A stretch of 64,000 nt of DNA from Rheinheimera sp. 4Y26. GTDB lineage: Bacteria > Pseudomonadota > Gammaproteobacteria > Enterobacterales > Alteromonadaceae. Location: the NCBI RefSeq assembly GCF_025245835.1, contig NZ_JAOBWS010000010.1, positions 62,001-126,000 of the forward strand, given 5' to 3'. Below, in pieces: positions 8,289 to 53,560 of the stretch. The position numbers were made by a program, and so were the translations under genes. The notes beneath the pieces were generated by a model. That model was not told the DNA's origin. It worked only from the letters and a program-made list of their open reading frames with translations, and did not search any database. Within the stretch, counting starts at the first letter, position 1, and each line of letters begins with the position of its first letter.

Positions 8289-8577
8289 TCAGCAGCTGTT
8301 ACAACAACAAATTTCCCGTTTTGAAGCTTTGCTTGCTGCTGAACAATACGACGAGGCCTGTCAGGCTTGTGTTGAAATTCAGCAGCATCTGATGTTATTT
8401 CAGCGCCAGGGCAATACGGCTGATGTTGCTGACGATATCAGAGCGTTAAAATCCTTGTTTGATATCAAAATTGAAGAGCTGAAAAAAAAGCTACACCAGA
8501 TCCAGATAACTGTTGCTTCCCTTGACCAGTTTCGGTCTAATAAAGTGAGTGAAGCTTATCAGAAGAACAATTATTAA
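8278..8577 (+). CDS. FliT-position small flagellar protein
   Basis: A 99-residue, highly charged, all-helical product encoded directly after fliS. Position and size are those of FliT, the FliD chaperone, but the sequence is weakly conserved and I see no diagnostic FliT motif; it may be one of the short FliT-like proteins of Shewanella and Vibrio relatives. The ATG lies inside the fliS end (11-base overlap) and its stop overlaps the maf start by one base (TAATG), so it is translationally tied to both. Confidence 0.75.
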   Translation: MLADQQLLQQQISRFEALLAAEQYDEACQACVEIQQHLMLFQRQGNTADVADDIRALKSLFDIKIEELKKKLHQIQITVASLDQFRSNKVSEAYQKNNY

Positions 8578-10658
8578 TGTCAAATGAAATCGAGAAACAA
8601 TTAGCTGACATTGAATCAAAACTCGCTGAAGTTGTTGCACAAAAAGAACGCGAACTTTTATTTGAACAAGAATCACAACAACGTTTTGAAGCCAACCTGC
8701 AAGCTTTCCAAAAATATTATCCTGACGTTTATAACACCATCAAAGAATATAAAAAACGTGATGATTTTAAGTTTATTGTCAGAGAAGGTGGGCTCGCCGA
8801 TTTTATTCCGTCCGGTCAGACTATTCCTTTGTATGGCGTGGACATCAAAAAAACTGTTGCCAGTCAGGTAGACAGATACCGCGACAAAGCTTTTTTCAGC
8901 ATGACCAAATATGGTTTTGGCGTAAAAAGTGAAGATGTTCGCATTCACATCCGCTATATGCATGCATTGGATCAGCAACTTGCTGATTTTTATGCGCAGG
9001 ATCTGACACCTATTAGCCAGCTGCCGCCTCATTTCCCAAGTGCCATTATTTTTGGCATTGGCCTTGGTTATCATATTCCGTTGTTGCTCGAGCAACACTC
9101 TTTTGATTATTTGTTTATTTGTGAACCTGATTTAGAGCTGTTTTATGCCAGCTTATATTGTATTGACTGGGCAGCTATCATTCATGACATTGATGAAAAG
9201 GGAAAAACATTATTTTTGCAGGTGGGTGTCAGTTATAAACACTTTTTTGCAACTTTAACTTCTGTTTCCGCCGACATCGGTGCTTTTTCACTGGTGCGTA
9301 GTTATTGTTATCAGCACTATCCATCACCTGAAGTCAACAAACTCATTAAAGAGTTTTTTGACCGTTACCGTGATTTACAATTAGGTTTTGGTTTTTATAA
9401 CGACGCTATTACCGGCCTGGCTCATGGTATTGAAAACCTGAACCAGGGCTACGAGTTGTTTTATGTGGATCCAAAAGCAGAAAAATTCCCATATGCCGAT
9501 GTACCGGTGTTTGTTATCGGCAACGGCCCTTCGCTCGATGATGCTTTTGAATTATTACAGCAAGTTAAAGACAGAGCTTTGATTTTTGCCTCAGGCACTG
9601 CACTTGGCTCTTTATTAAAAATGGGCATAGATCCGGATTTCCACGTGCTGGTTGAAAGACCCAAAATTACCTATGACATTCTGCTCGATACCCAGCCCAA
9701 AGAAGTGTATGAAAAACTTAATCTGCTGACCGTCGATGTGATGTATCCGGATGTGCTGGATTTATATCAGTGGGCTGGGGTAGGGCTAAAAGGCCCGGAA
9801 GCGGCCACTTATTTTATTTATCAATACATAGCATTAACACGGCATAAGTTATTAAAAGCCATGCCAAATTGTGGCCCGCTGGTGGTGAATACTGCATTGT
9901 CTTTTGCAGTGTCTATGGGTTTTAAAGAGATTTATCTGGTGGGTGTCGACAACGGTTATATTAATAAAGCCACCCACTCTAAGTTCAGTATTTACAGTGA
10001 TGAAAGTTTAGATTTTAAACGTACCGTCAATAAAAACGCGACCAATAAATTAGAAGGCAATTTTGGTGGCACTGTGATGGCCACTGATTTATTAAAGGTT
10101 GCCAAAATTCAGATTGAAAACCTGATTAAATCAGCCAAAAACACCTTCTTTTATAACGTCGGTTTTGGCGCCAAACTTGAAGGTGCCCATCCGCTCACCG
10201 TTGAAGATGTATTAGTACCGAAAAAGTTGATTGATAAAACCACTGTGGTGGCAGACGTCAAAAAGCGCTTTTTTATCGACTTTAAACTGAATATTCAGGA
10301 AGCTGACATTAACTTCAAATTGCTGGATGAAGTATGTGAGCATATGATTTCAATTGCGAAGGAACCTGTGACAAACCGGGTGGAAGCTTCGGATTTATTG
10401 ATGCGGCAGGCTCGTTATCTTTATGCATTTAATGGTACAAAATTTACCTATATCTTCCATATGATCAAAGGTTCATTATTGTATTTTCATTGTCCTATGC
10501 TGACCATGTTATACAGCTTTGAGGAAGAAGAAGAGACCATGGCGCAGTTTGAAAAATCCAGACAGTTGTGGATTGATTATTTAACCGATATTAAAAATGA
10601 TTTCCCGCTGAACTGGAATACCAAGTGTGACTGGGGGCTGGAACAACGCAACCTGTAA
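8577..10658 (+). CDS. maf: Motility accessory factor (Maf) flagellin nonulosonic acid transferase
   Basis: Maf proteins transfer CMP-activated pseudaminic or legionaminic acid to Ser/Thr of flagellin in the cytoplasm before export. The 693-residue product has the central Maf/DUF115 region (about residues 290-500) with VPVFVIGNGPSLDDAFELLQ and IYLVGVDNGYINKATHS, preceded by an N-terminal domain with IFGIGLGYHIPLLLEQHSFD and CEPDLELFYASL. It overlaps the preceding stop (TAATG), placing it in the flagellin-chaperone operon, and converges on the operon that makes its presumed donor. Which nonulosonic acid it uses is inferred from that operon. Confidence 0.9.
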   Translation: MSNEIEKQLADIESKLAEVVAQKERELLFEQESQQRFEANLQAFQKYYPDVYNTIKEYKKRDDFKFIVREGGLADFIPSGQTIPLYGVDIKKTVASQVDRYRDKAFFSMTKYGFGVKSEDVRIHIRYMHALDQQLADFYAQDLTPISQLPPHFPSAIIFGIGLGYHIPLLLEQHSFDYLFICEPDLELFYASLYCIDWAAIIHDIDEKGKTLFLQVGVSYKHFFATLTSVSADIGAFSLVRSYCYQHYPSPEVNKLIKEFFDRYRDLQLGFGFYNDAITGLAHGIENLNQGYELFYVDPKAEKFPYADVPVFVIGNGPSLDDAFELLQQVKDRALIFASGTALGSLLKMGIDPDFHVLVERPKITYDILLDTQPKEVYEKLNLLTVDVMYPDVLDLYQWAGVGLKGPEAATYFIYQYIALTRHKLLKAMPNCGPLVVNTALSFAVSMGFKEIYLVGVDNGYINKATHSKFSIYSDESLDFKRTVNKNATNKLEGNFGGTVMATDLLKVAKIQIENLIKSAKNTFFYNVGFGAKLEGAHPLTVEDVLVPKKLIDKTTVVADVKKRFFIDFKLNIQEADINFKLLDEVCEHMISIAKEPVTNRVEASDLLMRQARYLYAFNGTKFTYIFHMIKGSLLYFHCPMLTMLYSFEEEEETMAQFEKSRQLWIDYLTDIKNDFPLNWNTKCDWGLEQRNL

Positions 10659-10661
10659 AAC

Positions 10662-10690
10662 GGCAGAGCCCGTGATGGCTCTGCCCCTTT
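10662..10690. terminator. Bidirectional terminator between maf and the leg operon
   Basis: GGCAGAGCC (10662-10670) pairs perfectly with GGCTCTGCC (10677-10685) around a 6-base loop. Read on the minus strand the hairpin is followed by GTTTTA and ends the nine-gene sugar operon; on the plus strand CCCTTTATATT follows, a weaker signal for the maf transcript. Confidence 0.8.
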
Positions 10691-10735
10691 ATATTCACTC
10701 TTCATTCTTTGCAGTGCTTGAGTCAGCATTGTGCT

Positions 10736-11491
10736 TTATAACGTAAAACCATCATCCACAATAATATTCTGACCGTTGATATATCTGGCTTCGTCTGACA
10801 GCAGGAACAAGACAGTTCCTGCCATACTTTGCGGCGGCAGCATGCCGGTTCCCAGGCATTTTCCCCGGTACTTTTCTGTAAATTCAACAGGTTGCTGGTC
10901 CAGAATACCGCCAGGGCTTATTACATTGACCCTGAAGTTGCTGTGGCCCACGTACTTGCACACATACTTGCTCAGATGAATAAGCGCCGACTTGATAGCG
11001 GCGTATTCCACCGGCATGGTAAAGGCAACATCCTGATAAATATCAAATTCCGGGGCAACAACCCCATAAATAGACGCAAAATTCACCACAGCTAACGGGC
11101 GCTGATGCTCAAGGAAATATTTGGCGCAGCTTTGTAGCAGGAAAAATGATGAGCCCAGATTCAGCGCCACATTGTCGTTAAAATCGTCCAGCGTCACGGC
11201 TAAAAAGTCGGTGCCATATTTTTTATTGCGCGGATAAATACAATTCACCACACCGTCAATGTGCTGATGCTGCGCAAAAAAGGCGGTGACCTGCTCAGTG
11301 TTGGTTAAATCCAGCTGTATTAAATTCAGCGCCGGAACTGACAAATCCACACCTGCACCGCTCAGCCGTTGTTGTAATAAATCCAGGCTTAAATCACAGG
11401 CCAGCACCTGATGCCCGGCGGCCAATAAAGTGTGGACTATATGTTTGCCCAGCAGGCCGGCGGCACCCGCCACCATTATTGTTTTAGCCAT
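10736..11491 (-). CDS. Short-chain dehydrogenase, PtmA-like
   Basis: Classical SDR oxidoreductase of 251 residues. The NAD(P)-binding motif GAAGLLGKHI is at residues 8-17, the catalytic YxxxK is EYAAIK, and NVISPGGI follows in the usual place. In Campylobacter jejuni ptmA is part of the set that feeds the GDP-sugar route to legionaminic acid; here it is the last gene of the equivalent operon, so a role in making or modifying the sugar is likely while the substrate is unknown. I use the ATG at 11491 rather than a TTG one codon upstream. It overlaps the neuA-like gene by 8 bases. Confidence 0.8.
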   Translation of the reverse strand: MAKTIMVAGAAGLLGKHIVHTLLAAGHQVLACDLSLDLLQQRLSGAGVDLSVPALNLIQLDLTNTEQVTAFFAQHQHIDGVVNCIYPRNKKYGTDFLAVTLDDFNDNVALNLGSSFFLLQSCAKYFLEHQRPLAVVNFASIYGVVAPEFDIYQDVAFTMPVEYAAIKSALIHLSKYVCKYVGHSNFRVNVISPGGILDQQPVEFTEKYRGKCLGTGMLPPQSMAGTVLFLLSDEARYINGQNIIVDDGFTL

Positions 11492-12185
11492 CAAATGCAG
11501 CTCCGTTTGTTAGCAGCGACTCAGCAAATAAAAAATCATAGATATCGTCGATATCGACAGCCCGTTGTTTCGGTACTTCAACACTTGTCACTTTACCGGC
11601 AAAAAGCGCATTATTTTCAAGAATATAATTGACTCTGGCTGCATAGACCACAGTGGTAATATCAAAAGCTACAGGGGCGTCCTGCCGTCTTTTTATCGCT
11701 GGCTGATCGTTGATAAAAAGACAAACCTCATCCGTACCTTTGGGTTTAACCATATTAAAGTAGGGGTTACGCGCAGCTGGAGTAACACCAATACAGATAT
11801 CAGCCTTGCTGCTGTGCAGTTGTGTCAGAGCTGCAGTCACATCTTTGGCGGCGCGCAGCGGGCTGGTGGCTGGTAAGCTGACAAAGGTGTCAAACTGTAC
11901 ACCTTGTTGCTGAACGTAACGAATGGCATGTTGCCAGGCCAGCCATTCAGCAGCAGTATCACTGGCAAGCTCAGCCGGCCGGCGAATAACCAAAGCGCCA
12001 GCTGCTTTGGCAACTGCGGCTATTTCATCACAGTCGGTTGATACATAAACAGCTGAAATGTCAGCAATTTGTTTTGCCACTTCAATGGAGTAATGCAATA
12101 AAGGTTTGCCACAAAGCGGCTTGATATTTTTGCCCGGTAAACCTTTAGAGCCACCGCGGGCAAATACAAAAGCAATCACACTCAT
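11484..12185 (-). CDS. legF: CMP-nonulosonate cytidylyltransferase (NeuA/LegF/PtmB-like)
   Basis: This enzyme activates a free nonulosonic acid with CTP to give the CMP-sugar used by Maf. The 233-residue product starts with the family signature FVFARGGSKGLPGKNIKPLC and has the conserved SLPATSPLRAAKDV and the C-terminal AVDIDDIYDFLFAE. It is in an operon with NeuB- and NeuC-type enzymes, and legC/legB favour a legionaminic-type substrate over sialic acid. Substrate identity is inference from context. Confidence 0.9.
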   Translation of the reverse strand: MSVIAFVFARGGSKGLPGKNIKPLCGKPLLHYSIEVAKQIADISAVYVSTDCDEIAAVAKAAGALVIRRPAELASDTAAEWLAWQHAIRYVQQQGVQFDTFVSLPATSPLRAAKDVTAALTQLHSSKADICIGVTPAARNPYFNMVKPKGTDEVCLFINDQPAIKRRQDAPVAFDITTVVYAARVNYILENNALFAGKVTSVEVPKQRAVDIDDIYDFLFAESLLTNGAAFDG

Positions 12186-12218
12186 AAAATCTCCGGCTTT
12201 AGCTGCGCTGCTGTGGGT

Positions 12219-13208
12219 TTATCTGCCAAAACTGGCCTGCTGTTGTTTGGCCTGTTCAATCAAAGACAGGGTACAAAGCGCATCGTCCACAGTGGCAAGC
12301 ACTGTGTTTGTTGTGCCCGGCTGGCGGAGCTGTTGCTCAAAGGCGCTCAACATCTGCAGATACATCTGGTTGCGCTGATATTCGGGTTCACTGAATAACA
12401 GTTGTTGCTCGGAGCCGGTAAATAACCAGATGCTGTTTTGCACCAGATCCCATTCCAGCCGCGCTTCTGTGGTACTGATCATACAGCGGCGCTGCACTGT
12501 TTTTTGCAGGAAATCCTGATGCAGGCTGACTGAGGCGCCACTTTGTGTGCTCATGAATAAATCAGCCTGATCTTCCACATCAATGTCCAGCAAACCGCTC
12601 TGCTGTAATTGGCTGTAATGCAGCTGCAGCGAGCCAAATAAATAATGCAGATAATCCAGCTCATGGCTAAGTTCCAGCAGCACACCACCACCAAGTGATG
12701 CCCTGGCCGATACACTGTGCCGGTAGTCTTTGCCCGGCCGCCAGTCAGGCAGATACTGTGCTACATGACAGTTGATATGCAGCACTTTGCCAAGGTTGCC
12801 GTTTTGCAGGGTACTTTTTAATAGCTGCAACGCCGGTAAAAAACGCAGGCAATAAGCCACTGCCACAGGTGTTGTTGGGTTCGCCAGACTGAGTTGCTGC
12901 ATTTGTTTTCCCTCTGCGAGGGTCGCTGCCAGTGGTTTTTCCACCAATACCGGAACGTGCTTTGCCAATAACGCGCTCATAAACTGCAGATGGCTGGAGG
13001 CGGGGGAGGCCACAATACAATAATCGGGCTGGATCCTGAGCAGTTCATCAAGGTTCGCCGGATACACAATATCAGCGTCACGCTCAGCTGCAGCGATAAC
13101 ACCGGTGGCACCCAGCCAATAAATGCGCGCCCCGGGATGCAACAAACGCAAATTGCCGATGTGGCGCCGGCCAATACTGCCGGCGCCAATCACCGCAATG
13201 TGTTTCAT
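12219..13208 (-). CDS. Gfo/Idh/MocA family oxidoreductase
   Basis: NAD(P)-dependent sugar oxidoreductase of 329 residues. The Rossmann motif IGAGSIGRRHIGNL lies at residues 6-19, the family lysine motif VLVEKPLA near residue 100, and a C-terminal alpha/beta domain contains GGGVLLELSHELDYLHYLFG. Its ATG overlaps the upstream stop (ATGA), so it is coupled to the ptmE-like gene. Such genes appear in nonulosonic acid islands but are not among the core legionaminate steps; it may act on the sugar precursor or decorate the product. The substrate cannot be named from sequence. Confidence 0.85.
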   Translation of the reverse strand: MKHIAVIGAGSIGRRHIGNLRLLHPGARIYWLGATGVIAAAERDADIVYPANLDELLRIQPDYCIVASPASSHLQFMSALLAKHVPVLVEKPLAATLAEGKQMQQLSLANPTTPVAVAYCLRFLPALQLLKSTLQNGNLGKVLHINCHVAQYLPDWRPGKDYRHSVSARASLGGGVLLELSHELDYLHYLFGSLQLHYSQLQQSGLLDIDVEDQADLFMSTQSGASVSLHQDFLQKTVQRRCMISTTEARLEWDLVQNSIWLFTGSEQQLLFSEPEYQRNQMYLQMLSAFEQQLRQPGTTNTVLATVDDALCTLSLIEQAKQQQASFGR

Positions 13209-14266
13209 GCCGGTAACCTTAAGTTATGCACGTCAATCTGTGCTCTTTGGTAGTCATCAATGCGGCCTATATCCAGCCAGTACTCGTGGATAGGGAACAT
13301 GGAGACTTTTTTGGTGAGCTCAATATTCTGCTCCAGCAAGGTCGGCATATCGATACGTTGGTTTGGCTTTACCTGAGCACGCACTTCCGGATTGATCACA
13401 TAAATACCGGCGTTGACAAAAAGACGCTGAATGGGTTTTTCCACCATGCTGAGCACGCGCTCGCCGTCGCCGTTAATAACGCCAAAAGGAATTTGATATT
13501 CATAATCGCGCACACACATAGTGGCGTCAGAGTGGCTCTTATTATGAAACTCCAGCAGTTGTTCAAAATCCACTGTGGTTAACAAGTCACCGTTCATTAA
13601 TAACACCGGCAGTTTAGGTGCATCTGGCGGCAGCAAGCCAAGTGCACCCGCCGTGCCCAAAGGTAAGTCTTCATAAATATATTTAATGCTGACGTTCCAT
13701 TTGGAGCCATCGCCAAAATATTGCTGAATTTGCTCCGGCATATAATGCAGCGAAATATAAAAATTATGAAAACCAGAGCGGATAAAACTCAAAAGCACCA
13801 GCTCCAGAATTGGCTTGTCGCCTACTTTGAGCATAGGTTTAGGGCAATCATTGGTCAGCGGTTTTAACCTGGTGCCAAAACCACCGGCCATTAAAAACAC
13901 CGGATTGTCATGTCTGAATTCAGGTGAGTTGCGCTGCAGAATTTCAAGGTCAACCACTTTGCCGTTTTCAAGCAGTGGAATAGACAATAAACCTTTTTCA
14001 TTCATCAACTTAATCAGTTCGCGTCTGGATGTTCCGATTTGGGCCGTCACAGGGTGATTGTTCATCACGGCACTGACCGGGCTGTCCAGCGAGAAATTTT
14101 TTAACAATCCGCGGCGGATATCACCATCTGTGACCACTCCCAGCAGTTGTTGGGTTTCTGAAACCACCAGCGCAATACGCAAGGACGCCTGATCGATGAT
14201 CTTCAGGGCATCACGGATAGAGCTGTCAGGGGCGATAAGGACTTGTTTCCACTTTTGTTCCATCAT
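13205..14266 (-). CDS. ptmE: CBS-domain sugar-phosphate nucleotidyltransferase (PtmE-like)
   Basis: The 353-residue protein has two CBS domains (about 1-115) fused to a nucleotidyltransferase (about 120-350) with the signature GGFGTRLKPLT followed by PKPML, and the acceptor-site stretch LPLGTAGALGLL. This fusion matches C. jejuni PtmE, a glucosamine-1-phosphate guanylyltransferase that opens the GDP-sugar route to legionaminic acid. CBS domains suggest allosteric control by an adenosyl nucleotide. The start has GAGG upstream and lies 7 bases after neuD; its stop overlaps the next start. GDP specificity is inferred from family and context. Confidence 0.85.
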   Translation of the reverse strand: MMEQKWKQVLIAPDSSIRDALKIIDQASLRIALVVSETQQLLGVVTDGDIRRGLLKNFSLDSPVSAVMNNHPVTAQIGTSRRELIKLMNEKGLLSIPLLENGKVVDLEILQRNSPEFRHDNPVFLMAGGFGTRLKPLTNDCPKPMLKVGDKPILELVLLSFIRSGFHNFYISLHYMPEQIQQYFGDGSKWNVSIKYIYEDLPLGTAGALGLLPPDAPKLPVLLMNGDLLTTVDFEQLLEFHNKSHSDATMCVRDYEYQIPFGVINGDGERVLSMVEKPIQRLFVNAGIYVINPEVRAQVKPNQRIDMPTLLEQNIELTKKVSMFPIHEYWLDIGRIDDYQRAQIDVHNLRLPA

Positions 14267-14273
14267 GATGACC

Positions 14274-14924
14274 TCACATAACGATAAAGTGCCGTGCCGG
14301 ATAAACTTTTTGCTGCTCTAGCAAATCACATACCAAAGTAGCGCCTGCTGCCACCAAAGCTGCCTTGCCAATGGCGATATTCTGGATCACAGTGGCACCG
14401 GCGCCGATAAACACCTGCTCGGCGCAGTGTACATTGCCGCAGAGCACAGCGCCTGGCGCCACCATCACATGGGCATCCAGTTTGCAGTCGTGTTCAATAA
14501 CCGCAGCAGTGTTTACAATACAGTTCTGTGCAATCTGCACTCCGGCATTGACAATACTGCCATCCAGAATTTGTACCCCTTCACCCAGACTGCAGTAGGC
14601 CGACACCAGCGCTTTTTCTGAGATGACACTGGCAAACTGGTAACCCTGGGCTTTGAACTTATCAAAAATCTGCATCCGCCTGTGTTCACCAGGTAAGCGG
14701 CCAACGGCGTTCACCAGCAGCACTTCATCCGGGGAAAACTCACTCATTTGCTCGTCCAGGTGATATTGTTTGATGCTGGCGAAAGGGGTGGCTAACTGCG
14801 CTTTTTCGGCGCAAAAAATTGCCGCAGGCATTTGTTGTTGCCGCGAGAGAATATCCAGCAGCACCCGGGCATGACCACCGGCACCAATCATCACCAGCTT
14901 TTTAGTTGTCGATAAGTTCGTCAT
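14274..14924 (-). CDS. legH: NeuD/PglD-type acetyltransferase (LegH role)
   Basis: A 216-residue left-handed beta-helix acyltransferase. The N-terminal Rossmann-like part has the family motif VMIGAGGHARVLLDIL (about 12-27); the C-terminal half is a run of hexapeptide repeats (VISEKALVSAYCSLGEGVQI onward) with the catalytic His in AVIEHDCKLDAHV. In the operon this is the best candidate for N-acetylating the 4-amino sugar made by LegC, although NeuD proteins can also O-acetylate the finished nonulosonate. An in-frame upstream start (14990) would run far into neuB; the ATG at 14924 gives a normal length and a 23-base overlap with neuB. Confidence 0.82.
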   Translation of the reverse strand: MTNLSTTKKLVMIGAGGHARVLLDILSRQQQMPAAIFCAEKAQLATPFASIKQYHLDEQMSEFSPDEVLLVNAVGRLPGEHRRMQIFDKFKAQGYQFASVISEKALVSAYCSLGEGVQILDGSIVNAGVQIAQNCIVNTAAVIEHDCKLDAHVMVAPGAVLCGNVHCAEQVFIGAGATVIQNIAIGKAALVAAGATLVCDLLEQQKVYPARHFIVM

Positions 14925-15987
14925 GCTGATAATCCCTGTTGATGGTGCTGCCAAGCAGCTGCCAATAATCAAATGGACTTTTGCCATCACCCGGTCTTTT
15001 GCAGACTAAATCTTCAGCTTTAAAAGTGTCGCCTGCTTTAAGCGGCCGTGCCGCCACCAGTGATTTTCGAATCAAAGTCCGGTTTTTCAGCTCAGAAGCG
15101 GCTGGTTCCTTGCGGCCATGGCCCAGCACCAGCTCTACCTGACGAATGCCATCCACCATAGCTTTGAGTTCTGCAGGCTCCAGCGAGGCCTGATGATCAG
15201 GCCCTGGCAGGTTTTTATCCAGGGTAAAATGTTTTTCAATGACAGTGGCATCACGGGCCACTGCGGCCATCGGCACCACAATACCCTGACTGTGGTCGGA
15301 ATATCCGACCGCCAGGCCAAATTCCTGACGTAAGGTATCCATGGCTTTTAAGTTAATGTCGGCAAAAGGCGCCGGATATTCGGTGGTGCAATGTAATAAG
15401 GTGACTTTTTGTTTCAGTTGCTGCTGACCTTCGGCAGAGTTAAAGGCGCTGGCAAAATCAGCGCTGCTCTTTGGCAACGCAGTTGCTGGCGCCGTCATGC
15501 CATAAGCCAGTACAGCCAGCGCATCACGGATTTCAGTTAAGGTGCTGACGCCAGTCGATAAAATAATATCGGCGCCGGTGCGGGCATATTGTAATAACAA
15601 CGGGGCATTGGTGATTTCACCGGACGGAATTTTCAGCACCGGCAATTGCAGCCTGGCTAAAAACTGCAGGCTTTCGCTGTCAAAAGCGGTCGACATAAAA
15701 CGGATGCCAAGCTCGTTACATTTTTTGATCAGCAGCAGATGGTCGGCATGACTGAGTTGCAGTTTTTTTAACATATCCAGCTGATTGCCGTTATTTTGTG
15801 TATTTTCAGCCTGATATTCTGCTTTTTTGGCTCTGTTCGTTACCAGTTGCTCTGCGTTGAAGGTTTGAAACTTCACCACATCAGCACCGGCGGCACTGGC
15901 TGCTTCCACCAGCTGCAACGCCAGTTCTAAACTGCCATTATGGTTTACGCCGGCTTCGGCAATGATCAGGGTTTTGTTCATCAGCAT
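14902..15987 (-). CDS. legI: Nonulosonic acid synthase (NeuB/LegI-like)
   Basis: Condenses phosphoenolpyruvate with a six-carbon 2-acetamido sugar to form a nine-carbon nonulosonic acid. The 361-residue product has the NeuB barrel with IIAEAGVNHNGSLELALQLV at the start, VVKFQTF, LKIPSGEITNAPLL, LHCTTEYPAP and VIEKHFTLDKNLPGPDHQ, and a C-terminal SAF/antifreeze-like domain (about 295-355) with RKSLVAARPLKAGDTF. All landmarks of a working enzyme are present. The context favours 2,4-diacetamido-2,4,6-trideoxymannose as substrate, hence LegI. Confidence 0.93.
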   Translation of the reverse strand: MLMNKTLIIAEAGVNHNGSLELALQLVEAASAAGADVVKFQTFNAEQLVTNRAKKAEYQAENTQNNGNQLDMLKKLQLSHADHLLLIKKCNELGIRFMSTAFDSESLQFLARLQLPVLKIPSGEITNAPLLLQYARTGADIILSTGVSTLTEIRDALAVLAYGMTAPATALPKSSADFASAFNSAEGQQQLKQKVTLLHCTTEYPAPFADINLKAMDTLRQEFGLAVGYSDHSQGIVVPMAAVARDATVIEKHFTLDKNLPGPDHQASLEPAELKAMVDGIRQVELVLGHGRKEPAASELKNRTLIRKSLVAARPLKAGDTFKAEDLVCKRPGDGKSPFDYWQLLGSTINRDYQHDELIDN

Positions 15988-15995
15988 CTGCGCTC

Positions 15996-17135
15996 TTAAT
16001 GAATATCAAAAAACTTTTTGTGCGCAGTCAGAGGTAATTCCGCCAATAACCGGGCGACCGTCTGGCTGGTCTGTCCTGCGTCATAAGGGTTATCGGCGGC
16101 GCTCAGCAGATCTTTAGTCTGCAGTGCCTGTTGGATGGCATGGCTGATGGCCAAAGGCTCGGGCGGGCAATGCACTATATGTTTGGAACACTCGCGGCCT
16201 TGCTGGCGTACACCAACATTTACCACAGGCACCGCCAGTGACGGAATTTCAATAATGCCGCTGGAAGAGTTCCCAATCACCAGTGCAGCATGGCTGACCA
16301 CATCCAGATAACGATGGCCAAAAGATGCCACAGTTTTCACTTTGCTGTTGCCGGCTTGCCACTGCTGCAGCGCCTGAATAATCACCTTGCCGCCGTTGTC
16401 GGCATTGGGGTAACTCGCCACTACTGCATAGTTTTGTTGGCTTTCAAGTGCCTGAATAAGCGCTGCAATGCCAGCGGCGGGGGCTTCATCTGCAGCTGTA
16501 ACCGGATGATAAGTTAAAAAGATAAATTCAGTGTCTGGTGCAAGCCCCAAAAAAGCCAGGGTATCAGCGCGGCTGGCGCGCTGTTGCCCCCTGATATTAT
16601 CCAGGCCAATGGCCCCTACGTTAAACACGCGCTCCGGGTTTTCACCCAGCTGGATCACCCTTTGGCGGTGCTGCACACAAGAAGTGGCGTGGTAACTGCT
16701 CATTTTGGTGATGGCATGGCGAATGGCATCATCATAAGCACCTTCGGTAATTTCACCGCCGTGCAGGTGCAGCACAGGAATTTGCATAATAAGCGCAGCT
16801 TGCGCCATACCCAGGGCTTCATACCTGTCACCAAGCAGCACCAGTAGATCGGGCCTGAGCCGCTCCAGCGCATCGGCATAACCAATAATGCCAAGGCCAA
16901 GGCTTTTCAGAGTGCCTACCGCGCTGTCGGACGATAATAAAGTTTCAATTCTGGCGGCTATGGCAAAACCATCCTGCTCAATACTTTTTACCGTATAACC
17001 ATAATCGGGCGACAGGTGCATGGCTGAAACAATCAGCTGCAGCTCAAGCTCAGCATGTTGCTGAATTTGTTTAAGCAGCGGGAATAATAATCCGTACTCA
17101 GAGCGGGCACCGGTGAACACTGCAATTTTTCTCAT
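15996..17135 (-). CDS. legG: Hydrolysing NDP-sugar 2-epimerase (NeuC/LegG-like)
   Basis: Hydrolyses and 2-epimerises an NDP-activated 2-acetamido sugar, releasing the free mannose-configured sugar for NeuB/LegI. The 379-residue product has VFTGARSEYGLLFPLL at the N-terminus, LHLHGGEITEGAYDDAIRHA mid-protein and VGNSSSGIIEIPSL in the C-terminal domain. The start ATG has AAAGGAG 7 bases upstream, and that whole initiation region is the last unit of a 20-bp tandem repeat running back into legC (17131-17240). Two tiny ORFs with 4-base overlaps link the legC stop to this start. Confidence 0.93.
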   Translation of the reverse strand: MRKIAVFTGARSEYGLLFPLLKQIQQHAELELQLIVSAMHLSPDYGYTVKSIEQDGFAIAARIETLLSSDSAVGTLKSLGLGIIGYADALERLRPDLLVLLGDRYEALGMAQAALIMQIPVLHLHGGEITEGAYDDAIRHAITKMSSYHATSCVQHRQRVIQLGENPERVFNVGAIGLDNIRGQQRASRADTLAFLGLAPDTEFIFLTYHPVTAADEAPAAGIAALIQALESQQNYAVVASYPNADNGGKVIIQALQQWQAGNSKVKTVASFGHRYLDVVSHAALVIGNSSSGIIEIPSLAVPVVNVGVRQQGRECSKHIVHCPPEPLAISHAIQQALQTKDLLSAADNPYDAGQTSQTVARLLAELPLTAHKKFFDIH

Positions 17136-17240
17136 GCCTGGACTCCTTTACTCATGGCTTTATTCCTTTTTTTATGTCTGGACTACTTTGCTTATGGCTG
17201 CGCTCCCTTGCACATGGCTGCGCTCCCTTGCTCACGGCTG
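17131..17240 (-). repeat. Tandem 20-bp repeat of a translation-start module, legC-neuC junction
   Basis: Five consecutive 20-bp units and half of a sixth occupy 17131-17150, 17151-17170, 17171-17190, 17191-17210, 17211-17230 and 17231-17240. On the minus strand each reads roughly AAGGGAGCGCAGCCATGAG: a Shine-Dalgarno, seven bases, and ATG (ATA in two units, GTG in the half unit). The neuC start is the final unit and the legC stop lies in the first. Read in order: the legC TGA overlaps a GTG (GTGA) that opens a 27-codon frame (17235-17152); its TGA overlaps an ATG (ATGA) opening a 7-codon frame (17155-17132); that TGA overlaps the neuC ATG (ATGA). Confidence 0.9.
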
Positions 17241-18392
17241 TAGCCCGGGGGCGACCGAACTTGGCAGATTGACCAGACGTTTGGCCAGCCATTCACTGTG
17301 GCTAAGGCTACCGCGCGGGCAATCTTTATACATGGGCAAATGGTGCATCAGCTCCCACACAGGCCTGGTCATAATGCCCTGGTTATTGCTTTGTTTCAGA
17401 AGCAATTGTTGTTGCTGCTCATTGGCACAAATCACGGCATTTAACCAATAGTTGGATTTGGCATAAGCAGGCTCAGCCACAAACTGATAATCGCTGTCTT
17501 GCAAAAAGTTCTGGTATAACCCGGCTAAAGCTCTTTTATTGGCAAGATATGAAGGTAATTTTGTCAGTTGGGCACAGCCTAAAGCGGCGTTTAAATTGGG
17601 CATGCGAAAGTTAAAGGCTACTTCGTCGTGAAAAAACTGATAAGGATGGGCAACTTTGGCGGTGGTGGTGACATGTTTACAATGCACCCCATCCTCTATC
17701 TGCTGACAAAGCACCATACCACCACCGCCTGTGGTGATAATTTTATTGCCGTTAAAACTTAAAGCGCCAAAACGGCCAAAGGTGCCGGTATGACGGCCAC
17801 GATAAAACGAGCCGAGGCTCTCGGCGGCATCTTCTATCAACGGTAATTGCCATTCACTACAAATAGCAACAACTTCATCAAGTTGCACCGGATGACCAAA
17901 GGTGTGCATAGGCACAACAGCGCCAATTTTTTGACCTGTGCTGCGAAGTACAGTGTTGCCGGCGGCATTTTTGCCGCATTGTTCAGTTAAAAACTGCTGC
18001 AGTGCATCCGGGCATAAGCCCAGGCTCATGGGCGACACATCAACAAAAGCCGGTGTGGCCCCCAGAAAATGCACGGCATTACAGGTGGCAACAAAAGTCA
18101 GCGCCTGAGTGATCACAATATCGCCCTGGCCCACACCGGCCAGATGTAAAGCTGCCTGTAAGGCGGCTGTACCATTGACGGTGGCAACGGCGCGGCTGCT
18201 TTGGCAAAAAGCGGCCATCTGTTGTTCAAACTGGTCAACAAAAGGGCCTGCGCTGGAAACAAAAGTACTGTCTAAACAAGCCAGCAGACTGGTTTTTTCC
18301 GCATCATTAAACAGTGGCGCATGCAGTGGAATAGGGCCTGTGCTTTGATAAATGTCGCGGATAAAACTCAGCAGCGCTTTTGTGCCTGTCAT
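17232..18392 (-). CDS. legC: DegT/DnrJ/EryC1 sugar aminotransferase (LegC-like)
   Basis: PLP-dependent transfer of an amino group to C4 of the 4-keto-6-deoxy NDP-sugar made by LegB. The 386-residue product has the family fold: NGTAALQAALHLAGVGQGD near the N-terminus, IEDAAESLGSFYRG mid-protein, and the Schiff-base lysine K217 in SFNGNKIITTGGGG. Its ATG overlaps the legB stop by one base (TAATG). The stop lies inside the 20-bp tandem repeat that leads to neuC, and its last codons (GLQP) are encoded by a repeat unit, so the repeat may have altered the natural C-terminus. Confidence 0.9.
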   Translation of the reverse strand: MTGTKALLSFIRDIYQSTGPIPLHAPLFNDAEKTSLLACLDSTFVSSAGPFVDQFEQQMAAFCQSSRAVATVNGTAALQAALHLAGVGQGDIVITQALTFVATCNAVHFLGATPAFVDVSPMSLGLCPDALQQFLTEQCGKNAAGNTVLRSTGQKIGAVVPMHTFGHPVQLDEVVAICSEWQLPLIEDAAESLGSFYRGRHTGTFGRFGALSFNGNKIITTGGGGMVLCQQIEDGVHCKHVTTTAKVAHPYQFFHDEVAFNFRMPNLNAALGCAQLTKLPSYLANKRALAGLYQNFLQDSDYQFVAEPAYAKSNYWLNAVICANEQQQQLLLKQSNNQGIMTRPVWELMHHLPMYKDCPRGSLSHSEWLAKRLVNLPSSVAPGLQP

Positions 18393-19576
18393 TACATTTT
18401 TCCATCCAGATATTTGCCGGTGTCCTGATGCATAAAACCAGGTAAAGTGGCGATAAATAATTTGACTATATCGGCCTTGTGCCAGACAGGTTGAGCTTTG
18501 ATCTGGTTTATTTGCTGGTAAAAGTGCGTCAGCTGCTGATTATCAGCTGCGCTCTGGTGCAACACACCAATCTGCTGATAACTGTGAAAATCTGGGCTGT
18601 CTTGCTGCTCGTAAAATTCTTCAGCTTCTTTTTCACCCGTGGTATCCGACGGACTAAAGACACAGGGCCATTGACCCTGAGCCGGTAGTGTGGCCATTAA
18701 AGCGCGTGCTTCTTGTTCTGTGCTGCAGAGCTTTGGCGTAAAACCATGGTTTTTCAGGAATTTCTCCGCAATGCTTGTCATGCTGATCAGCTGACTTTCA
18801 TTAAGTTTGGGAAAATACACATCACGGTTCTGGCCAAAACAGCAGGACATAATACAAAGCACTGCTGCTTCATGATCGGTAATAAAATAACGTCTGATAT
18901 CGCTGGGTGCTGCTAAAGGTTGTTGTTTTTGCAGTCGTTTTTCAAAGCCATGTAATAAAGAACCGTCGGAGAAGGCCACATTGGCAAAGCGGGCGGTGGA
19001 GATGTTGATCTGGTCGCTGTAGCTGGCCAGCACCAGCTCCATAATACGTTTGGACGCGCCCATCATATTGACCGGATTGGACGCTTTGTCGGTGGACACA
19101 CAAAAGTATTTTTTCACACCGGCCTGCACCGACTGGCGCAGCGTTTTTTCGGTGTTCAGAATATTCACATCAATCATCCGCATCAGGGTAAACACGTCTT
19201 TTTCGCTGCGCACATGTTTCAGCGCCGACAGGTTCAGTACATAGTCGTATTTGCCGTCGCTGCTGATAAACCTGTCATAAGCCAAAGAACCGATATCAAG
19301 TGCCAGCGCCTGGAAATCAGCCGGGAAAATGTCAAAGCTACTGCGCAGGTCGCGCACCAGTTCAACCAGATTGTTTTCACTGAGGTCAACCAGATGTAGC
19401 TTGGCAGGGCCGTAACTCATCAAAAGCCGTGTCACTGCCTGGCCAATAGAGCCGGCCGCACCCAGCACCAGACAGGATGAATTGCCAAGCAGGCTGCAAA
19501 GTTTGTGATGATGGGCCTGTAAATCGTCGTCCAACATTTCAGATGGGCGGCCTAAATACTGTAAGACATTTTCCAT
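18392..19576 (-). CDS. legB: NDP-GlcNAc 4,6-dehydratase, CapD/LegB-like
   Basis: First committed enzyme of the operon: NAD-dependent removal of water from an NDP-N-acetylglucosamine to a 4-keto-6-deoxy sugar. The 394-residue product has an extended SDR fold with the nucleotide motif LVLGAAGSIGQAVTRLL (about 36-52), LNLSALKHVRSEKDVF, and VSTDKASNPVNMMGASKRIM, the Polysacc_synt_2/CapD signature in which MxxxK replaces the SDR YxxxK. A soluble form, without the membrane domain of PglF. It opens the operon; no clear Shine-Dalgarno is seen at the ATG. GDP versus UDP substrate is undecided by sequence. Confidence 0.87.
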   Translation of the reverse strand: MENVLQYLGRPSEMLDDDLQAHHHKLCSLLGNSSCLVLGAAGSIGQAVTRLLMSYGPAKLHLVDLSENNLVELVRDLRSSFDIFPADFQALALDIGSLAYDRFISSDGKYDYVLNLSALKHVRSEKDVFTLMRMIDVNILNTEKTLRQSVQAGVKKYFCVSTDKASNPVNMMGASKRIMELVLASYSDQINISTARFANVAFSDGSLLHGFEKRLQKQQPLAAPSDIRRYFITDHEAAVLCIMSCCFGQNRDVYFPKLNESQLISMTSIAEKFLKNHGFTPKLCSTEQEARALMATLPAQGQWPCVFSPSDTTGEKEAEEFYEQQDSPDFHSYQQIGVLHQSAADNQQLTHFYQQINQIKAQPVWHKADIVKLFIATLPGFMHQDTGKYLDGKM

Positions 19577-19792: not shown

Positions 19793-20587
19793 GTGAAAAT
19801 TAACACCAATATTGCTGCCGAACCGCTCAAACAAAACAAGATAGATTCAGACAATCTGCTCAAACAACTGGCCAGTGCCAGAAGAGTGAACAGTGCCGCC
19901 GACGACGCTGCAGGTTTACAAATCATTGACCGGTTAACGGCGCAGGCCAACAGTGCCAGTCAGGGCATGCGTAATTTGTATGACGGCATGTCGCTGGCGG
20001 CAGTGGCTGAGCAGACGCTGGCCGGTGTCAGCGAGGGGTTATCTGAGCTTGATAGTCTGACAGTGCAGGCCGGGAACGGCGCCCTGACCGATGCCGATCG
20101 TGCCGCCATTGCAGAACAAGCTGCGCAAATCAGCAAGTCGATGCAACAACAAATCGACAACAGCAGTTTTGCCGGTGTGAAACTGTTTGCCGAAGATAAA
20201 CAAATTGCCTTTAGCAGTGGCGATACGCTTTTGAACCTGAACACGCCGGGGCTGGCCGGTGCGGTCAGTGGTAATGGTTTGGATGCTATTGATTTTAATA
20301 CGGAAGCTGGCCGCAGTGCGGCGCAAAACAGTATCCAGAGCCTGAGTAAAACAGTCAATGCCGCCAGGGCAGACTTAGGCGCAGGTGTGAATACCTTTGC
20401 TGGCGCCGCACGTGGCCTTGCCAGCGCCAATGAAAATGTCAGTGCTGCCCGCAGCAGAATTGAAGATTTGGATTATGCCAGCGCTGTTTCCCGGCAGGTT
20501 GCCAATGGAATCAAGGAACAAGCTGCTGTTGCAGTAAGCATCCAGGGCCGAATTTCTGCCGAACAGTCATTGAAATTATTAGCATAA
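19793..20587 (+). CDS. Short divergent flagellin-like protein
   Basis: A 264-residue flagellin paralogue outside the flagellin cluster, between the sugar operon and flrA. The N-terminal D0/D1 part starts MKINTNIAAEPLKQNKIDSD, has an abbreviated D0, and keeps RRVNSAADDAAGLQIIDRLT; the C-terminal part keeps ENVSAARSRIEDLDYASAVS and ends SIQGRISAEQSLKLLA. The middle domain is reduced to a few dozen residues. The start is GTG with AAAAAGG upstream; no ATG fits. I find no sigma-28 promoter; a weak TATACT (19754-19759) is the only -10-like element. A strong terminator follows. Function is unknown: minor filament protein, junction variant or regulator are all possible. Confidence 0.85.
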   Translation: MKINTNIAAEPLKQNKIDSDNLLKQLASARRVNSAADDAAGLQIIDRLTAQANSASQGMRNLYDGMSLAAVAEQTLAGVSEGLSELDSLTVQAGNGALTDADRAAIAEQAAQISKSMQQQIDNSSFAGVKLFAEDKQIAFSSGDTLLNLNTPGLAGAVSGNGLDAIDFNTEAGRSAAQNSIQSLSKTVNAARADLGAGVNTFAGAARGLASANENVSAARSRIEDLDYASAVSRQVANGIKEQAAVAVSIQGRISAEQSLKLLA

Positions 20588-53249: not shown

Positions 53250-53560
53250 TTTGTTGACCACTATTGATCTTGAGTCTGGCATCAGGTGTTGAATGATGCC
53301 ATCAAAGTCGATGGCTGAGTGGTTTTTCAGAGCTGTGTTGTGGTCTTTGTTATTTTATCCGCCCCTGTTGTAACTGAATCCCCCCTGTCGCAACTGAAGT
53401 ACCGCTATCGTAAAACCGTTGCGTTATTTTGTTCCTTTATCAGCCGCAACAGCCCGAATACTGCGGGATCTGCGCTGTTATTGCCCCCTGCAATGCTGTT
53501 ACTTTACCCCCAGGTTTGATAAGCTGCGTGCTATTTACGGCTAAGCTACGGGATCTGCTT
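53250..53560. other. Non-coding gap between chemotaxis and polysaccharide clusters
   Basis: No gene is supported here. A 7-bp hairpin (GGCATCA 53278-53284 with TGATGCC 53294-53300) may end the chemotaxis transcript but has no immediate T-run. A 20-bp imperfect direct repeat sits at 53361-53380 and 53381-53400 (core CCCCTGTNGNAACTGAA). No ops/JUMPstart element was found. Confidence 0.5.

Follow-up and report, generated by a model that had tools for sequence, protein, structure and literature searches.

There is dispute over the distance that a bacterial ribosome can cover between terminating and restarting, and the question is raised in a concrete form by the junction between legC and neuC in Rheinheimera sp. 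4Y26. In the window that we analysed (the whole stretch of 64,000 nucleotides, to which all unlabelled positions refer), 96 nt separate the legC stop from the neuC start, and they are filled by five 20-bp units (17235-17136, minus strand). Do these units carry ribosomes from one gene to the next, or are they an idle repeat in front of a gene that is translated on its own? The elements of the junction, in the order of transcription, are as follows, with G008 denoting the nearest relative found, Rheinheimera sp. UBA8519:

17232..18392, minus strand: legC, a LegC family aminotransferase (TIGR04181, E 1.6e-155), whose TGA (17234-17232) forms the first junction
17216..17235, minus strand: unit 1, GTGAGCAAGGGAGCGCAGCC, headed by GTGA, the GTG overlapping the legC TGA
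17152..17235, minus strand: 27-codon relay ORF from the frame trace, with a GTG start and a TGA within the ATGA of unit 5 (17155-17152)
17196..17215, minus strand: unit 2, ATGTGCAAGGGAGCGCAGCC, headed by ATGT, stop lost
17192..17215, minus strand: side mini-ORF of 7 codons, from the ATG of unit 2 (17215) to the TAA of unit 3, without an overlapping restart
17176..17195, minus strand: unit 3, ATAAGCAAAGTAGTCCAGAC, headed by ATAA, start lost, Shine-Dalgarno (SD) sequence degenerate
17156..17175, minus strand: unit 4, ATAAAAAAAGGAATAAAGCC, headed by ATAA, start lost; 19/20 identical to G008 unit 2, which has ATGA there
17136..17155, minus strand: unit 5, ATGAGTAAAGGAGTCCAGGC, headed by ATGA, identical to G008 unit 3 and holding the neuC SD
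17132..17155, minus strand: 7-codon relay ORF MSKGVQA from the frame trace, with its TGA inside the neuC ATGA; also in G008
17143..17149, minus strand: AAAGGAG before neuC, the strongest computed anti-SD pairing of the array (-8.2 kcal/mol)
15996..17135, minus strand: neuC, a UDP-GlcNAc 2-epimerase (NeuC_NnaA; TIGR03568, E 5.2e-129)

Both genes belong to a compact cluster (8577-19576) that also includes neuB and neuD, together with a nucleotidyltransferase, a legF/PseF-like cytidylyltransferase, an oxidoreductase, an SDR and a dehydratase-like gene, and that adjoins a PseD-like flagellin modification protein and a flagellin-like ORF at 19793, the latter named by eye. None of the other cluster junctions looked at is as wide as the legC/neuC gap, the second longest measuring about 33 nt. 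Between 16900 and 17500 we found nothing that matches a sigma-70-like promoter; a terminator-like match occurs there once (0.9 expected), on the other strand. The open literature that we searched yielded nothing on Rheinheimera with legionaminic acid.

A first-pass annotation, made from the sequence alone, had described the junction as a tandemly repeated translation-start module, and this description was borne out. TRF reports a period of 20 with 5.7 copies (17127-17240, 74% matches, 0% indels), the top score (81) among 22 rows for the whole window, and the 100-nt spacer matches itself best at a lag of 20 (self-match 0.71), a value reached by none of 2000 dinucleotide shuffles (maximum 0.535). 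The consensus unit has ATGA at its head, an A/G-rich, SD-like middle and the next ATGA directly after it; an intact unit thereby forms a mini-ORF of 7 codons that ends in a TGA overlapping the following ATG (24 - 4 = 20 bases). All units in the window array and in that of G008 are exactly 20 bases long, without any indel. A CCCCTGTCGCAACTGAA-like unit of 20-21 bp occurs elsewhere in the window, in two imperfect copies (53357-53398) just upstream of an ORF at 53429.

The units are less uniform than the annotation had it, which placed an SD and an ATG or variant in every unit. Both elements are present in units 1, 2 and 5 (SD AAGGGAG or AAAGGAG); unit 3 reads AAAGTAG and unit 4 AAAGGAA at the SD position, and both have ATAA, which is no start codon. 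In the window's genome, damage affects three of the five internal ATGAs. Units 1 and 2 are identical at 18/20 positions and all other pairs at 11-16/20, so that the near-identity of units in a phase-variable tandem repeat (contingency locus) is not found in the window array. Unit 2 (17215-17211) reads AUGUG, a motif at which initiation in overlapping frames has been reported (PMC9841429).

Frame tracing nevertheless recovered the continuous chain with the frames that had been proposed, and the side mini-ORF, read from the sequence, also agrees with the proposal. The path begins where the legC TGA overlaps a GTG (17235-17232), runs through 27 and then 7 codons and ends at neuC, each step being a -4 overlap. 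Overlapping stop and start codons, by which termination-reinitiation is judged, were found at every path step in three genomes.

The three genomes differ in the number of units at this junction. Our genus set comprised 22 genomes, one per species and including that of the window (G000), and 11 of the 22 contain a neuC relative at the cut-off used. In G008, whose NeuC is 95% identical, the array, which comes from a metagenome-assembled genome, consists of three units, all with ATGA, in a spacer of 56 nt, and forms a perfect relay of MSQVAQA, MKKGIKP and MSKGVQA. A third species, G018 (NeuC 85%), has no array, and its legC and neuC share one ATGA; the unit numbers are therefore 5, 3 and 0. Window unit 4 agrees with G008 unit 2 at 19/20 positions, and window unit 5 with G008 unit 3 at 20/20. 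The two arrays differ on the legC side of these shared units, where the window has three units and G008 one, between flanks that are both well conserved. That one unit (G008 unit 1) is identical to each of window units 1-3 at 13/20 positions and to unit 5 at 15/20.

We then considered 39 loci from the genus and family, leaving out nine weaker family matches without a locus. A co-directional legC lies upstream of neuC in 25 of the 39. In the 23 such loci other than the two arrays the spacer, measured from automatically chosen neuC starts, ranges from -14 to +30, and since it is +17 or less in 21 of them, close spacing is the norm. With a tight junction as the usual state, the array is most simply explained as an insertion by duplication. 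We found no further array and no spacer above 30 among the family loci with legC upstream, and among 395 family genomes only G000 and G008 gave a DNA match across the array. A 26-base stretch in G071 (L280:201-226) is 96% identical to part of units 3-4 (E 2.3e-4); no tandem repeat was found around it, and the match is probably due to chance.

The length of the unit bears directly on the chain. When an ATGA junction is duplicated with a period of 0 mod 3, the downstream gene acquires an N-terminal extension; with 1 mod 3, a relay forms only at even unit numbers; and with 2 mod 3, it forms at every unit number tried, from 1 to 6. Since 20 is 2 mod 3, each intact copy makes a mini-ORF that ends in the ATGA of the next copy. 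The earlier statement that frames shift with the loss or gain of one unit thus does not hold where units are intact: each starts and ends in the same relative phase, so that gain or loss causes no frame shift and the chain reaches neuC at 1 to 6 units. The neuC gene itself keeps its own start whatever the unit number. The 77- and 53-bp MIRUs (mycobacterial interspersed repetitive units) of senX3-regX3 follow the same rule (2 mod 3).

We further asked whether the array bears traces of selection. In simulations of neutral substitution, which assume a star tree from the consensus, the relay stayed intact in 14.1% of runs for the window (five units) and 6.3% for G008 (three units), and in 25.5% and 13.0%, respectively, of those in which the legC stop survived; because of these rates, two intact relays are not extraordinary. 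Both relays were kept in 244 of 20000 column permutations. Single-base deletions would break the relay in 100 of 100 cases in the window array and in 42 of 60 in that of G008, and none is present. The two neuC-proximal units are identical to those of G008 at 39/40 positions, as compared to 55/68 fourfold sites in the 240 nt of each gene that border the array, and are thus more conserved than these sites (binomial about 0.002); unit 4 alone (19/20) does not differ significantly (binomial about 0.08), and 40-nt coding windows with at most one difference from G008 are common (522/2211). Being post hoc and drawn from two related arrays that share two units, these tests hint that the array is kept by selection.

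We propose that tandem duplication of an overlapping junction has made a ribosome relay, which survives by tying neuC translation to that of legC, an explanation that we consider evenly balanced between right and wrong. The starting state would have been a single legC/neuC -4 overlap (ATGA), as still found in G018, and the duplication would have arisen in the ancestor shared by Rheinheimera sp. UBA8519 and the species of the window. It could have been tolerated or selected, as the 2 mod 3 period would hand ribosomes on at any copy number. Ribosomes ending legC would stop and restart at one junction after another and in this way cross 96 or 56 nt to neuC, with mini-ORFs (24 nt each if intact) replacing a bare gap by -4 overlaps. 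In native E. coli gene pairs, a distance of 38 nt abolished 80-100% of re-initiation, and in the two pairs tested the upstream gene needed no more than its last 15 nt for it (PMC10666635); neuC should therefore be largely uncoupled from legC by an unfilled gap of 96 or 56 nt. As a counter-case, coupling over long spacers has been found in other work, cited by PMC10666635 and PMC12548453, and the matter is not settled. The anatomy, the frames, the unit numbers and the close spacing in relatives are observed directly, whereas we infer the function of the array: ribosomes would take the junction-to-junction path, and the translational tie of neuC to legC would be the reason for which the array survives. 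Against the relay stand the weak computed SD before the first junction (-2.5 kcal/mol; -1.7 and -2.2 before the first two junctions in G008), the damage to internal ATGAs and the strong SD of neuC, which would allow this gene to start by itself.

The array could also be a neutral relic, left by replication slippage that multiplied the junction, with neuC translated de novo thanks to its strong SD and with mini-ORFs that have no role. We regard this as a real possibility that falls short of probable. The neuC gene may indeed start independently from its own SD (-8.2 kcal/mol), three of five internal ATGAs have decayed, relays remain intact in 6-14% of neutral runs (13-26% given the legC stop), and arrays at gene starts exist with a period of 19 as well (L224, L233 and L236; see below). 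Against it stand the intact relay in both species, free of indels, and the conservation of the last two units beyond that of nearby fourfold sites. Alternatively, the repeated SD-like A/G-rich stretches might act as a landing pad, concentrating 30S subunits and boosting neuC initiation regardless of the mini-ORFs. Computed anti-SD pairing before the six window junctions ranges from -1.3 to -8.2 kcal/mol: it is strong in units 1, 2 and 5, with their AAGGGAG or AAAGGAG (-7.6 to -8.2), and intermediate in unit 4 (-5.6), as such a role would have it. The SD is, however, degraded in unit 3 (-1.3) and in G008 unit 1 (-2.2). Moreover, the computed RNA fold of the region does not differ from that of shuffled sequence (z 0.14), so that no special openness is seen, and we find this explanation unlikely.

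Least probable of all, to a degree that makes us doubt it strongly, is the switch put forward in the first-pass annotation, by which changes in unit number within a population would tune NeuC and hence the flagellin sugar. The two species do differ in unit number (5 and 3), with the difference confined to the legC side between well-conserved flanks. Yet frequent slippage is poorly supported, because the units are too diverged except for units 1-2, leaving fast tuning by copy number without support, and an intact relay is indifferent to the number of its units.

To look for comparable arrays elsewhere we scanned other genomes for repeated ATGA junctions. In a loose-gap scan of viral sequences, periods 18, 21 and 24, such as coding repeats would produce, dominated the matches listed, and later scans were therefore limited to periods that are not multiples of 3. 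A pattern of three ATGAs with AGGA between them, at periods 19 or 20, yielded 63 loci in a collection of 84,980 species. These do not form one phenomenon, as at least 26 of the 63 belong to another tandem-repeat class. By a rough motif count, 26 loci have an ATGAC junction and a flank like TTCGCTTCGCTC, 8 have only unequal periods and 29 are neither, including the Rheinheimera locus (L168), L170, L206 and L224; by eye, L182, L188, L189, L213 and L221 among these 29 also resemble the other class. Units of that class are like TCGCTCAGGATGACAGAAGGA, with a period of 19 or 20 (for example L163, L173, L199, L205, L216 and L222), and occur in Bacteroidales, Lachnospiraceae, beta-proteobacterial and other genomes; the ATGA in them seems not to be a gene start. 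A further repeat, in Edaphobacillus lindanitolerans (L223:1227-1390, minus strand), has about 11 ATGAAATAAGGAGCGTCGAT-like units of period 20, the last of which opens a 2-codon frame only.

Judged by their flanking ORFs, several of the scanned loci are arrays at gene starts, and in three comparable junction arrays (L170, L206 and L234) the relay reaches the next gene. In L170, from an Anaerolineae MAG, the upstream tail KGNAP recurs as MSKGNAP in the repeat; neither flanking ORF has a Pfam match above the cut-off. L206, from a Peptococcaceae MAG, has RNase HII followed by UPF0102, with the mini-ORF MKAGETG, and the viral L234 has a glycosyltransferase/FkbM gene, MNIGVKR twice and then a UDP-glucose dehydrogenase that starts with MNIGV. 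In L234 and L170 the unit visibly combines the beginning of the downstream gene with the end of the upstream one. The same origin is therefore supported for the Rheinheimera unit, which extends from one start codon up to, but not including, the following one and looks like a fusion of the beginning of neuC with the end of legC, though less clearly (8-10/20 alike to the legC tail in fixed register). The relay also arrives at the downstream start in the viral arrays L233, L236, L243 and L128, in the last of them at an in-frame ATG lying three bases before it. Overall this holds for 8 of the 10 arrays traced, the exceptions being L153 (viral) and L211 (genome), a success that the scan pattern itself favours by selecting intact relays.

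Arrays at gene starts with a period of 19 include L224, for which no long upstream ORF was found, L233 and L236. Requiring ORFs of at least 70 codons on both sides and a stop at the first junction left, of 77 equal-period rows, L170, L206, L234 and L217 at period 20 and L233 at period 19; L217 belongs to the other repeat class and its ORFs have no PHROG match, and L168 (period 20) was cut one unit short in this count. A preference for a period class was not established among these 77 rows. We tentatively suggest, as a possibility rather than an expectation, that duplication of ATGA junctions is a recurrent natural way of lengthening an operon junction without uncoupling it, in which selection keeps the 2 mod 3 phase, and that Rheinheimera, L170, L206, L234 and, by units of greater length, the MIRUs would follow one arithmetic rule. 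If the relay works, it would explain how such duplications are tolerated in operons and provide a phase rule for MIRU-like repeats. The natural series of 0 units (spacer of -4 nt), 3 units (56 nt) and 5 units (96 nt) is of use here, as scanning and relay predict different neuC output along it.

MIRUs are interspersed, apparently mobile units of roughly 50-100 bp. The legC/neuC array differs from them in that its unit is only 20 bp long, occupies a single locus and seems to have arisen in place. The unit consensus, when up to 2 mismatches are allowed, occurs only at the legC/neuC locus in G000 and G008 and nowhere in G018; exactly 3 mismatches give 8, 7 and 1 matches outside the array in G000, G008 and G018, with 2, 1 and 2 for reversed-pattern controls. 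Across the 22 genus genomes, a double-unit pattern with up to 2 mismatches is likewise confined to this locus, and at 3 mismatches it has single matches in G009, G012 and G019 and one control match in G014. The size of the unit and this restriction to one locus argue that the array is not a MIRU. The ends of the unit resemble the flanking genes, more clearly so in L170 and L234, and the sequences point to local duplication as the probable source of the array.

The likeness to MIRUs is nonetheless close, as those of the senX3-regX3 intergenic region are also short-ORF units coupled to the next gene at -4. MIRU units of this kind measure 77 and 53 bp (PMC4213456, PMC2453075), vary in tandem copy number between strains and species (PMC2453075) and are thought to alter expression of the next gene little (PMC12548453). 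The short ORF with -4 overlaps at both ends is present in both of our arrays, perfectly in G008 and with a longer first ORF in the window.

Other known systems share single features with the array. Termination-reinitiation at ATGA overlaps has the same geometry at each path junction; it normally involves one junction, whereas here mini-ORFs link a series of three junctions in the window and of four in G008. Very short ORFs set the translation of the next gene in the axe-txe minigene (PMC8708949) and in mgtQ between mgtC and mgtB, the latter reportedly acting via alternative RNA stem-loops and acidic residues (PMC8092293), but neither involves tandem repeats of a junction. In bicistronic designs, a short leader ORF delivers the ribosome to a coupled gene (PMC12548453); these are engineered, whereas the legC/neuC array is natural. 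The TAACTGA heptamer repeats of marine Beggiatoaceae are likewise direct repeats just before start codons, yet they consist of 7-bp units with little SD character and occur genome-wide, and the main text of that paper nowhere mentions coupling or reinitiation (PMC4679880). Among the titles and abstract openings listed in the open literature searched, none describes such a 20-bp junction array. Taken against these systems, the legC/neuC array comes closest to a small, probably home-made version of the mycobacterial mini-gene repeats.
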